Below are positions 17,893 to 21,302 of a stretch of 64,000 nt of DNA, piece by piece. The stretch covers positions 434,001 to 498,000 of the forward strand of contig NZ_JANHGR010000002.1 in assembly GCF_026616205.1 (NCBI RefSeq), given 5' to 3'. How positions within the stretch are numbered: position 1 is the first letter of the stretch; each line of letters opens with the position of its first letter. Origin of the DNA: Halolamina litorea (GTDB lineage Archaea > Halobacteriota > Halobacteria > Halobacteriales > Haloferacaceae). A program made the translations under genes and the position numbers. The notes below the pieces were generated by a model, which did no database searches, was not told where the DNA came from, and saw only the letters and a program-made list of their open reading frames with translations.

Positions 17893-18396
17893 TCAGTCGC
17901 TCCGCCGAACGACGACCTGATAGTCGGCCACCGCGCGGGCGTCGGCGCCACTTCCGGGGAACAGCAGTTCGACCGACCACCGCCCACCGGCGCCGATTCT
18001 GGCGGTGTCGGCTTCGGCCTGCCCGAGCAGCGTCCCCTCGTCGTCTCGGAACTCCGCCAGCACGTCGACGTTCGTGACCGCCGCGTCGCTCGTGTTCTCG
18101 ACGACGACGTCGATGCCGACCAGTTCGCTGTCGCTCCCCTCGTTCGACCGCACGAGGGTGTGCTCCGCGACGGTCAGCGCGTCGCCGGGGGCCCGGGCCG
18201 CGGCTGGCGTGGCCGTCGGTGAGGGGGTCGGCGACGGCGACGGACTCGGGGACGCCGTCGGCTCGTCGGTCGCGCTCTCGCTCGGGGCATCGGTGGGTGT
18301 GTCGGTGCCGTCACCACCGAACGCCGAACAGCCGGCGAGCGCGGTCAGCGGGGTCGTCAGGAGAGCGGTGCGTGCGAGGAGGGCACGGCGTCGCAT
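17893..18396 (-). CDS. Tat/lipobox lipoprotein with FxLYD-like domain
   Basis: A 167-residue lipoprotein from ATG 18396 (MRRRALLARTALL), or 176 from ATG 18423. The signal ends in LTALAGCSA, a lipobox with acceptor Cys. It is followed by a Thr/Pro/Ser/Glu linker with SPSPSPTPSPT, a typical cell-wall spacer. The folded part (LVGIDVVVENTSDAAVTNVDVLAEFRDDEG...) is a beta-sandwich like FxLYD domains. It sits 46 bases downstream of the PQQ dehydrogenase gene on the same strand, so may be co-transcribed and exported to the same surface. Function unknown. Confidence 0.78.
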   Translation of the reverse strand: MRRRALLARTALLTTPLTALAGCSAFGGDGTDTPTDAPSESATDEPTASPSPSPSPTPSPTATPAAARAPGDALTVAEHTLVRSNEGSDSELVGIDVVVENTSDAAVTNVDVLAEFRDDEGTLLGQAEADTARIGAGGRWSVELLFPGSGADARAVADYQVVVRRSD

Positions 18397-18442
18397 GTCG
18401 CGGGCTGTGAGCGCCGTACCCATAGCTGCTGTGACTCTTCGT

Positions 18443-20359
18443 TCAGTCCTCCTCCTCGTCGAGTCGCCGTTTCGCCGCGAAGGCGGCGCTGCCGAGTGCG
18501 GTCGCGGCGGCGGCGGCGCCGAAGCCGGGGCCACTCGTGTTCGTCGTCTCCGAGTCAGCGTCGCTGGGCTGGTCTGTGCCGGCTTCAGTCGACGTGTCGG
18601 TGTCGGCCTCGGTCGGTTCGGCAGTCGGTAGTTCCGTTTCGGTCGGCGCCTCGGTTTCGGCCGGGGTCTCCGTCGTCTGCTCGGCGGCGAGCGCGAACAC
18701 CTGAATGCCGTCGGTGCTCGCGATCGCGACGTACTGTTTCCCTTCGACGGGGTCGTCCCACGACACCGGCGCGGCGGTAATCCCCCGGGGCGGGTCGGCC
18801 ACGCTGTGCTCCCAGAGGCGCTCGCCGGACTCGGCGTCGACGGCGACGAGGTTCGCCGTCGGCGAACTCCCGAAGACGACGCCGCCCCCGGTGGCGGTCG
18901 TGCCGCCGGCACGGGACTGGAGTTCGTCCTGTTCGAGCTCCTCGCGCCAGACCTCCTCGCCGCTGGCGGGGTCGATCGCGACCAGGTGCGCCGAGATGTC
19001 CGGGAACTCCTCGTAGTCGACGAGTTCGAGGCCGCCGCCGGTGTTGACCTCCGCGACGGACTCGTCGTACTCGTAGTCGCCGTACCAGTAACGCTTGACC
19101 GTGTCGTTAGCCGCGATGTGGGCCAGCCCGGTCTGGGGGTTGTAGGAGTCCGGCGTCCACTCCGTCGAGCCCCAGTCGGAGGGCCAGACGGTGGCGGCGT
19201 TCTCCTGGCCCTTCGGCAGGATGCCCATGAAGTCGACCTCGCCGCCCTGCTTGGCGTAGGGCCGCGAGCGCTCGATCAGTTGGCCGGTCTCGATATCGAG
19301 GAAGTAGAGGTAGCCGGTCTTGTTGACGGCCTCGACGACGCGCTGTATCTCGCCGTCGACCTCCATCTCCACGACGCGGGTGTTGTAGGTGTCGTAGTCG
19401 TGCCAGTCGTGGGCGACCAACTGGGTCGTCCACTTCTCCTCGCCGGTCGCGGCGTCGAGAGCGATCACGGAGTCCGAGTGCTTGTTCGGCCCCGGCCGGA
19501 CGACGCCGTTCATCATCGGCCCGGGGTTGGCCCCCGGGATGAAGATGGTGCCCGACTCGGGGTCGATCGCCGAGATGTTCCACGGCGCGGCGTCGCCGTA
19601 GCGCCAGGACTCCCCGACCCACTCGTCCTCGGGGATGACCTCGTACTGCCACTCGATCTCGCCGGTCTCGGCGTCGAGTGCGGAGTAGGCGCCCCAGCCG
19701 CCGTAGTAGCCGGTCATCCCCTTGAACACGAGGCCGTCGTACACTTCCGGCGCCTGCGTGCTCGCCATCCGCTCGGGGACGCTCATCTCCTCTTTCTGTT
19801 TGGGGGTGAGCGTCTTCGTCGTCCAGACCTCCTCGCCGGTGTAGCGGTCGATGGCGACGAGGCTGTTGTCGTGGGTGCCGAGGAACACCTTGTCCTGATA
19901 CACCGACACGCCGCGGTTCGCGTGGGCCAGCCCCTTCGTATCGTCGTTGGCGTAGGCGAAGCGCCAGTACTCCTCGCCGGTGCGGGCGTTGACCGCGCGG
20001 ACCTCCTGTGGGTTGGCCTGCGTGTAGTAGAGCACCGGCGGGTCGCCCGGGACGACCAGCGGCTCGGTCTGGTTGCCGGTGTAGTCGTCGATGTTGTACT
20101 CGGGGCTCAGGTCGCCGACGTTGTCGGGGGTGATCCGCGAGGCGGGCGCGAAGCCGATCTGCTCGTGGCCCTTGTTGTGGTGGAGCCAGCCGTTCGGGTT
20201 CGCGATGTCCTCCCGGAGCATCCGGTCGGTCACGTCCTCGCCGGGCACCTCCTGCTGGAACGTCCGGACGTTCTCGTCGGGCAGTTCCTCGGGCGGTACC
20301 TCCTCCTCCTCGTACTCGCGGTCGTCGACCGCGGAGCGGATGATGTCTGTTGGGTGCAT
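18443..20359 (-). CDS. PQQ-dependent dehydrogenase, large beta-propeller subunit with PGF-CTERM-like anchor
   Basis: A 638-residue quinoprotein-type eight-bladed propeller with repeated TGEEVW / ATGEEKW / SGERLWEH tryptophan-docking blades, as in PQQ alcohol/glucose dehydrogenases. It should oxidise an alcohol or sugar at the cell surface. The C-terminus has a Thr/Glu linker and a terminal module from about 611 with PGF, a hydrophobic helix and KRR, which matches PGF-CTERM archaeosortase signals. The N-terminus (MHPTDIIRSAVDDREYEE) has no signal peptide. There is no cysteine in the protein, so the vicinal disulfide over PQQ of classical enzymes is missing, and no heme domain is present. The start is 4 bases from the partner's stop. 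Confidence 0.88.
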   Translation of the reverse strand: MHPTDIIRSAVDDREYEEEEVPPEELPDENVRTFQQEVPGEDVTDRMLREDIANPNGWLHHNKGHEQIGFAPASRITPDNVGDLSPEYNIDDYTGNQTEPLVVPGDPPVLYYTQANPQEVRAVNARTGEEYWRFAYANDDTKGLAHANRGVSVYQDKVFLGTHDNSLVAIDRYTGEEVWTTKTLTPKQKEEMSVPERMASTQAPEVYDGLVFKGMTGYYGGWGAYSALDAETGEIEWQYEVIPEDEWVGESWRYGDAAPWNISAIDPESGTIFIPGANPGPMMNGVVRPGPNKHSDSVIALDAATGEEKWTTQLVAHDWHDYDTYNTRVVEMEVDGEIQRVVEAVNKTGYLYFLDIETGQLIERSRPYAKQGGEVDFMGILPKGQENAATVWPSDWGSTEWTPDSYNPQTGLAHIAANDTVKRYWYGDYEYDESVAEVNTGGGLELVDYEEFPDISAHLVAIDPASGEEVWREELEQDELQSRAGGTTATGGGVVFGSSPTANLVAVDAESGERLWEHSVADPPRGITAAPVSWDDPVEGKQYVAIASTDGIQVFALAAEQTTETPAETEAPTETELPTAEPTEADTDTSTEAGTDQPSDADSETTNTSGPGFGAAAAATALGSAAFAAKRRLDEEED

Positions 20360-20363
20360 CGTC

Positions 20364-21302
20364 TCAGTTCCCGTGGCTGGCTCGTCGCAGGTCGGTTCGT
20401 CGCTCGGCGCGCATCTCCTCGGAGATCCAGTAGGCGTCCTGCGGGAGCAGGCCCTGTGCGATGGCCTGGACCGCGAAGCCGGTCGAGAGCAGCGCCGTCA
20501 GGTCGCTCCCGCTCACGTCGGCGCCGCCGCCGAGGGCCTTGGCCCCCTCGGCCATCAGTTGGAAGCCGGCGGCCATCGACTGCCCGTGCCACGTCGCGTC
20601 GGCGACGATCTCGTCGGTCAGCAGTACCTTGTGGGTGAACAGGTGGTGATCGAGGTCCTTCAGCCAGAGCAGCGCCCCGCCGGCGGCGCCGCGGGTCATC
20701 GTCGGGATGTACTCGCCGAACTCGATCTCGGCCCGCGGGATCTCGTCGGTCGCGATCCAGTGGTGTTCGCTGAGTTCCTCGGCGTTGGCGACGACCTCGC
20801 TCAGCAGGTCGACGCCGGCGCCGTCGTCGAGGCCCATCCCCGACAGCGGCTCGGCCAGCGCCGCGGAACCGGCGAAGGCGCCGACGGCCGACTGCAGGAA
20901 CGCGGGGTCGAACCCGGGCAGGTGTTCCGTGGTGCTCTCGAAGAAGCCGACCTCGACGAGGTGGTCGTAGATCGGCCGGCCCGCCTCCTCGACGGCGGCG
21001 AACTCGTAGCGCGGCTCGCCCGTCGGCAGCCCGCGTTCGGGCACCGCCGTGAGCTCACTCGCCGCCTCGGCGACTGCGGGCTGCTGGCTCGCGATCAGGT
21101 CGGCATCGATCGAGCCAGTGAGGTCGGCCCTGATCGACTCGCCCACTGCGGCGAGGTCGCTCGCCGCGTTCGCGCTCATCGCGTCCCGGACCGCTCCGAG
21201 ACCTGTCCCGCCGGCCGCGACGGCGCCGCCGACGCCGAGGGCCTTGAGGAACTCCCGGCGGTCGTCGTCGTCGACGTACCGTGCATTGCTGTGTGTTACC
21301 AT
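20364..21302 (-). CDS. Tat-signal partner subunit of the PQQ dehydrogenase
   Basis: A 312-residue protein with a twin-arginine leader: RREFLKALGVGGAVAAGGTGLG at residues 15 on, with an N-terminal acidic stretch. The mature part is alpha-helical, with many acidic residues and hydrophobic helices (AAGFQLMAEGAKALGGG), and shows no cofactor motif I know. It lies directly upstream of the PQQ propeller with a 4-base gap, so the two are one operon. The partner has no leader of its own, which suggests that this protein carries it through the Tat pore. I do not recognise the family; haloarchaeal homologues are probably annotated only as Tat-signal proteins. Confidence 0.72.
   Translation of the reverse strand: MVTHSNARYVDDDDRREFLKALGVGGAVAAGGTGLGAVRDAMSANAASDLAAVGESIRADLTGSIDADLIASQQPAVAEAASELTAVPERGLPTGEPRYEFAAVEEAGRPIYDHLVEVGFFESTTEHLPGFDPAFLQSAVGAFAGSAALAEPLSGMGLDDGAGVDLLSEVVANAEELSEHHWIATDEIPRAEIEFGEYIPTMTRGAAGGALLWLKDLDHHLFTHKVLLTDEIVADATWHGQSMAAGFQLMAEGAKALGGGADVSGSDLTALLSTGFAVQAIAQGLLPQDAYWISEEMRAERRTDLRRASHGN

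Follow-up and report, generated by a model that had tools for sequence, protein, structure and literature searches.

A twin-arginine partner protein as putative carrier of a leaderless PQQ-dehydrogenase-like propeller in haloarchaea

Introduction

How might a protein that has no signal peptide of its own come to be anchored at the cell surface? This question is raised by two adjacent genes in a stretch of 64,000 nucleotides from Halolamina litorea (assembly GCF_026616205.1, contig NZ_JANHGR010000002.1, positions 434,001 to 498,000; hereafter the window). One encodes a β-propeller resembling pyrroloquinoline quinone (PQQ) dehydrogenases, which ends in a PGF-CTERM-like tail and lacks a leader. 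The other, directly upstream, encodes a helical protein (hereafter the partner) with a leader for the twin-arginine translocation (Tat) pathway. An initial annotation of this DNA proposed that the folded propeller and its PQQ are carried out of the cell on the Tat protein as a hitchhiker. A limited number of bacterial enzymes are known to be exported as Tat hitchhikers. In the open-access literature, the silence of which is weak evidence of absence, we found no Tat hitchhiker that is archaeal, that is a quinoprotein, or that has an archaeosortase-anchored cargo.

Comparison of the pair with its relatives makes it probable, in our assessment, that the propeller and its partner assemble into a cytoplasmic complex, that both are exported jointly where the partner carries a Tat leader, with the propeller as the hitchhiker, and that the propeller is anchored by an archaeosortase in the lineage of the window.

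A leaderless propeller and a twin-arginine partner

The two genes of the window and the signals on their products are located as follows.

20364..21302, minus strand: partner gene, encoding an all-helical protein of 312 aa from an unnamed family, with an N-terminal twin-arginine leader
21171..21272, minus strand: Tat leader region of the partner (residues 11-44), with RREFLK at residues 15-20
18443..20359, minus strand: propeller gene, encoding a PQQ-dehydrogenase-like β-propeller of 638 aa with an acidic N-terminus and without a signal peptide
18464..18529, minus strand: PGF-CTERM tail of the propeller (residues 611-632), consisting of PGF, a hydrophobic stretch and then KRR

As initially annotated, both open reading frames lie on the minus strand (21302 to 20364 and 20359 to 18443), with the partner upstream and a spacer of four bases (GACG) between them. 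The N-terminus of the partner reads MVTHSNARYVDDDDRREFLKALGVGGAVAAGG; RREFLK is followed by 18 uncharged residues from Ala21, the Cys of a lipobox is absent and the cleavage site is not clear. The protein scores 19.4 against TIGR01409 (TAT_signal, cut-off 16.7) and 16.4 against PF10518, below the cut-off of 22.7. Besides such Tat-signal-type matches no Pfam or NCBIfam family was found, in agreement with its earlier description as an unrecognised helical protein with a twin-arginine leader. We propose it as a carrier and binding subunit for the propeller.

The propeller matches PF01011 with 197 bits (cut-off 26.7) and the methanol/ethanol subfamily TIGR03075 with 285.7 bits, below the cut-off of 480. 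No start codon lies between the in-frame stop and its ATG at 20359: the 46 open codons of this interval contain no ATG, GTG or TTG and read RRCSRPASRSRPSHRAC..., unlike a signal. The propeller thus stands as leaderless, with no upstream start that would give a signal peptide. Its tail scores 19.3 bits against PF18204 (PGF-CTERM), just over the cut-off of 18.8, and 18.6 bits against TIGR04126, below the cut-off of 24.5, and the original call of a PGF-CTERM-like tail can be kept. The KRR after the hydrophobic stretch fits a topology with the propeller outside, as predicted by the positive-inside rule. The genome of the window also encodes the archaeosortase ArtA (331 bits against TIGR04125, cut-off 75) and has three matches to TatC.

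Linkage and co-inheritance of the two families

Searches for the two families (cut-offs E ≤ 1e-5 for the partner and E ≤ 1e-30 for the propeller, with few candidates scored per genome) recovered both from an identical set of 73 of the 392 genomes of the order, in 21 of its 95 genera, and gave no match beyond the order in 295 genomes of the phylum. The genome of the window carries three further propeller-partner pairs. In RefSeq the relatives of the partner are labelled 'hypothetical protein'.

Around 115 regions were fetched for locus comparison. The partner lies directly upstream of the propeller on the same strand in 114 loci, mostly at a distance of -10 to +26 nt, and the two genes overlap by 4 nt in 17 of them. 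Recurrence of the arrangement in about 114 loci of 73 genomes means that it is not due to chance. Only in locus L137 are the two genes divergently transcribed, and the propeller of L139 has no detectable partner on the stretch fetched. The partner of L137 (open frame of 270 aa, L137:4037-7024) seems to be without the N-terminal leader region.

Within the 31 genomes that hold more than one pair, the cognate partner matched the subfamily of its propeller in 70 of 72 tests, where 31 were expected, and the distance matrices of partner and propeller are correlated (r = 0.91). The pair is inherited as a unit. From the tight spacing, the frequent stop-start overlap, the strict linkage and the co-inheritance we infer that the products would be subunits of one complex, in which the helical partner binds the propeller soon after translation.

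Operon neighbours need not bind each other, and propeller and partner could be unrelated in function, with the propeller exported without a leader or held by its tail on the inside of the membrane. The identical phyletic set, the outcome of the co-inheritance tests (70/72) and the lack of any candidate leader in 110 propellers all argue against this. A PGF-CTERM tail facing inward would moreover be beyond the reach of an archaeosortase and contrary to the positive-inside rule. We regard mere neighbourhood as very improbable.

Distribution of leaders on propeller and partner

Hydrophobicity was expressed as the peak of the 14-residue Kyte-Doolittle mean, for propellers in the region before the domain. 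None of the 110 partnered propellers has a leader of its own (peak ≤ 0.80), and in many loci a longer propeller start is ruled out by an in-frame stop right at the end of the partner gene. Six bacterial relatives of the propeller all have their own leader (peak 1.48-2.49). At least 15 of the unpartnered haloarchaeal PQQ_2 propellers sampled, a control set resolved only in part owing to crude frame choice, have a Tat leader of their own, most with a lipobox.

The partners are bimodal: in 58 of 114 (the Tat group) RR precedes a run of at least 12 uncharged residues, and in the other 56 it does not. With fragments omitted, their hydrophobic peaks are 1.26-1.94 in the Tat group vs -0.51-1.02 in the non-Tat group, and RR is present in 55 of 55 Tat-group partners, with FLK or a near variant after it. 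The partner of L126 is borderline between the two. In a FastTree phylogeny rooted on six bacterial quinoproteins, which contains some long branches, the ancestral state of the haloarchaeal family is the Tat form, and at least two losses followed.

Since neither an upstream start nor a partnered homologue with its own leader was found, hitchhiker export withstands both sequence-level attempts at refutation proposed in the initial annotation. The expectation that propellers lack a leader wherever the partner is present is borne out (0/110), but half of those partners have no Tat leader either. The partner must therefore have another role, in binding or of a chaperone-like kind, and the export proposal stands only in a form in which the partner is not a carrier alone.

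Features of exported proteins in the Tat group

Two features of exported proteins are confined to pairs with Tat partners. PGF-CTERM tails are found on the propellers of 7 loci, from three lineages of one genus, and in 8 loci the propeller carries a cupredoxin domain as an N-terminal fusion. The fusions occur in Halorussus-type genomes (L074-L079, L081, L082), where the cupredoxin makes up the N-terminal ~170 aa of a leaderless propeller; by its position it could possibly serve as a built-in electron acceptor. Cys residues of the core, other than a vicinal pair, number 1.35 in the Tat group vs 3.51 in the non-Tat group, a depletion that would be expected for exported proteins, with few independent events on the tree behind it.

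Hitchhiker export draws support from the strict linkage and co-inheritance, from the restriction of PGF-CTERM tails and fused cupredoxins to pairs with a Tat partner, and from the Cys depletion. Anchoring by an archaeosortase, part of the initial proposal, agrees with the tail of the window's propeller and the presence of ArtA, but would be restricted to the three lineages of that one genus and is not a property of the family.

Partner fold and alternative routes of export

The AlphaFold model of the partner is all-helical (mean pLDDT 83.7). A sequence search of the PDB with the partner gave no significant match, and among 52 partner members at E ≤ 1 no Pfam family recurs except TAT_signal (PF10518), in 24 of 52. 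The absence of a Pfam match among these 52 members speaks against the partner being a described small subunit, such as the GMC gamma subunit.

Several observations weigh against the export reading. Pairing is conserved in the 56 of 114 loci in which the partner has no Tat leader, and the Tat/non-Tat contrast amounts to about two losses on the tree, so that few independent events lie behind the Tat-linked associations. The region homologous to the leader is nearly fixed in length, is conserved into the mature protein and shows no clear cleavage site; AlphaFold models it partly as a helix (block pLDDT 72-88). Taken together, the helix, the conservation and the indistinct cleavage site provide the strongest argument for reading this region as a structural element, or else as an uncleaved leader, and it is possible that a structural helix here resembles a Tat signal. 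Fold comparison offers no informative relative of the partner: Foldseek gave no match at E ≤ 0.001, and the best VIA Z score, 5.8, is to unrelated helical bundles, for which such scores are uninformative. Finally, another Tat gene that could be the carrier (a cupredoxin, or the lipoprotein of the window) adjoins some loci.

The first of these points would fit a partner that is a cytoplasmic chaperone or structural subunit, with an RR...FLK helix that is only Tat-like and a complex that stays inside the cell. In half of the family this partner lacks a Tat signal and the homologous N-terminus is conserved, the model places a helix over the leader stretch, and one leaderless clade adjoins a ferredoxin. 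We nevertheless judge this unlikely: RR is invariant in the Tat group (55/55), an uncharged stretch follows it in all, and these partners stand bimodally apart from the rest, while the PGF-CTERM tails and fused cupredoxins are confined to the same group, which is also poor in Cys.

The last point concerns a third gene of the cluster.

17893..18423, minus strand: gene for a 176-aa Tat-lipobox lipoprotein (RRRALL...LAGC)

It starts ~20 nt downstream of the propeller, at the same place in the nearest orthologous locus. The propeller could leave the cell with such a substrate, the downstream lipoprotein in the window or a downstream Tat cupredoxin in many relatives. Tat cupredoxins lie directly after the pair in many loci, ~20 of them with a leaderless partner; the Natrinema group, with a leaderless partner and a Tat halocyanin directly after the pair, is an example. 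Against this route, the lipoprotein is present in only two loci and a cupredoxin was not detected at 20 of the 58 loci with a Tat partner, whereas hardly any locus is without the partner; we consider it improbable. The broader idea that every non-Tat locus has another Tat gene to ride with was ruled out by ~30 such loci without one nearby.

The lipoprotein contains a low-complexity Thr/Pro/Ser linker, and among the fetched loci only the nearest ortholog shares its gene.

Electron carriers and predicted compartment

A cupredoxin, fused or adjacent, is present in 38 of 58 Tat loci and 24 of 56 other loci. Ferredoxins are found nearby in none of the 58 Tat loci and in 26 of the 56 others, and never together with a cupredoxin. 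The ferredoxin loci fall in a single clade of 30 and therefore represent one evolutionary contrast, not 26. For this clade a switch of compartment is possible. In agreement with this distribution, public annotation of Halomarina, Halococcus and Natrinema salinisoli lists a 'hypothetical protein' and a 'PQQ-binding-like beta-propeller repeat protein' near 'ferredoxin Fer', and in Natrinema thermotolerans a 'dehydrogenase' next to 'plastocyanin'.

The leaderless pairs of one clade lie near the ferredoxin Fer, a CDC48-type ATPase and sometimes an aldehyde ferredoxin oxidoreductase, at the following positions and in homologous loci.

L221:9063-9548: neighbourhood of a leaderless pair
L222:11090-11509: neighbourhood of a leaderless pair
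L223:12863-13345: neighbourhood of a leaderless pair

This set of genes suggests a cytoplasmic route from alcohol to acid.

Near the fourth pair of the window genome, a gene on the minus strand (L005:1489-2856) encodes a protein that combines a Tat leader, three cupredoxin-like repeats and a PGF-CTERM tail.

Active site and cofactor

The nearest solved structures to the propeller are 6zcv and 6zcw, of the lanthanide-dependent PedH (PMC11996626). A 130-aa propeller fragment found no match in the PDB. Two sites of the propeller gene are of interest.

19391..19399, minus strand: D321-x-D323 motif, where lanthanide-type enzymes have their Asp pair; both residues invariant in 110 of 110 members
19706..19708, minus strand: codon of Tyr218, at the position of the metal-ligand Glu; Glu or Asp in 108 of 110 members

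Trp260, Asn278, Asp321, Asp323 and Lys347 do not vary among the 110 members of the family. D-x-D is the lanthanide-type Asp pair (PMC8546591; PMC11996626). All six bacterial relatives have the motif too, and it is therefore not special to the haloarchaeal group. Tyr218 occurs only in the window copy and its nearest ortholog, which also have His for Trp320 and lack the vicinal Cys-Cys over PQQ (Gly-Leu in the window), whereas the three propeller paralogues of the window genome retain Glu or Asp at 218. The vicinal pair is present in 20 of 55 Tat members and 51 of 55 non-Tat members. From these substitutions, normal binding of metal and PQQ by the window copy and its ortholog appears doubtful, and the window copy may not be a normal PQQ enzyme.

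In 384 genomes of the order no PqqC exceeded the cut-off, and the PqqE match in the window genome is below its cut-off, so that PQQ would have to be scavenged. Haloarchaea route many secreted proteins through Tat, and use of this pathway alone is therefore no sign that a cofactor is loaded in the cytoplasm. With the metal-ligand Glu lost as well, PQQ as a co-exported cargo, which the initial annotation had included, is unproven.

An ABC (ATP-binding cassette) transporter of the NMT1/THI5 type, with substrate-binding protein, ATPase and permease, lies near pairs of both groups (L223:3134-5897, ~36 loci); it might import the cofactor or a substrate.

Comparison with known systems

The closest parallel is the flavin adenine dinucleotide-dependent glucose dehydrogenase of Burkholderia cepacia, in which a small helical gamma (hitchhiker) subunit with a Tat leader accompanies a leaderless catalytic alpha subunit, and is required for folding and secretion of the catalytic subunit in the same complex (PMC6719666). 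That enzyme is a GMC flavoprotein with a gamma subunit of 168 aa, whereas the present one is a quinoprotein propeller with a partner of 312 aa, and no Pfam match links the two carriers. The Burkholderia enzyme has no archaeosortase tail, nor is a clade with leaderless partners reported for it. In E. coli PaoABC, folded subunits without a signal are likewise co-translocated with one signal-bearing subunit (PMC4273604); this is a bacterial aldehyde oxidoreductase of three subunits with an unrelated carrier.

With type I quinoprotein alcohol dehydrogenases such as PedH, the propeller shares the PF01011 fold and the conserved Trp260, Asn278, Asp321-x-Asp323 and Lys347. The sampled bacterial members each possess a signal peptide and frequently lie beside a cytochrome c, whereas the haloarchaeal family is leaderless, has a cupredoxin or ferredoxin nearby and an extra helical partner; the window copy also differs from type I enzymes by Tyr in place of the ligand Glu.

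HVO_0405 of Haloferax volcanii is a Tat substrate processed by ArtA (reference 12 in PMC7157517), so that Tat export together with archaeosortase processing has a precedent. There, leader and tripartite motif are on one polypeptide, whereas in the window pair they are on different subunits. The PQQ dehydrogenases of heterotrophic marine Thaumarchaeota are also archaeal, some have DYD without Cys-Cys, and the genomes encode plastocyanin-like carriers; in contrast to the present family, 15 of 21 of their families have own signal peptides, and the accessible sections of that study describe no carrier partner (PMC7300363).

Discussion

Starting from the sequences, the linkage, the signal distribution, the co-inheritance, the tree polarity and the neighbouring genes, all directly established, we infer a series of steps that extends from physical binding and Tat dependence to anchoring, redox function and cofactor loading. 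The window pair belongs to the ancestral form, in which the twin-arginine leader of the partner would bring the folded complex to the Tat translocase, and the propeller would pass the membrane as a hitchhiker. In the lineage of the window the PGF-CTERM tail of the propeller would then allow anchoring at the cell surface by an archaeosortase, so that the partner would provide the targeting and the propeller the anchoring. For most relatives, the electron acceptor of the lanthanide-type quinoprotein would be an exported blue-copper protein, either fused to it or encoded beside it. Two derived lineages have lost the leader of the partner, and the ferredoxin-adjacent part of one of these, with pairs in Halorubrum and Halomarina, is probably cytoplasmic.

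The initial interpretation is thus supported in part and extended to a family-wide rule, to which the loss of the leader in derived lineages is added; the neighbours of part of the leaderless lineages suggest a change of compartment. Tentatively, and with somewhat more doubt than confidence, we put forward the wider reading that the carrier subunit holds the export signal, that loss of this signal moved the enzyme from an outside, blue-copper setting to an inside, ferredoxin setting, and that in the window targeting and anchoring are split between the subunits. The family points to lanthanide-type alcohol oxidation in haloarchaea, an order in which no PqqC was found, with blue copper replacing cytochrome c. 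Some 114 pairs with and without a leader, flanked by electron carriers in line with the compartment predicted for them, constitute a natural experiment.

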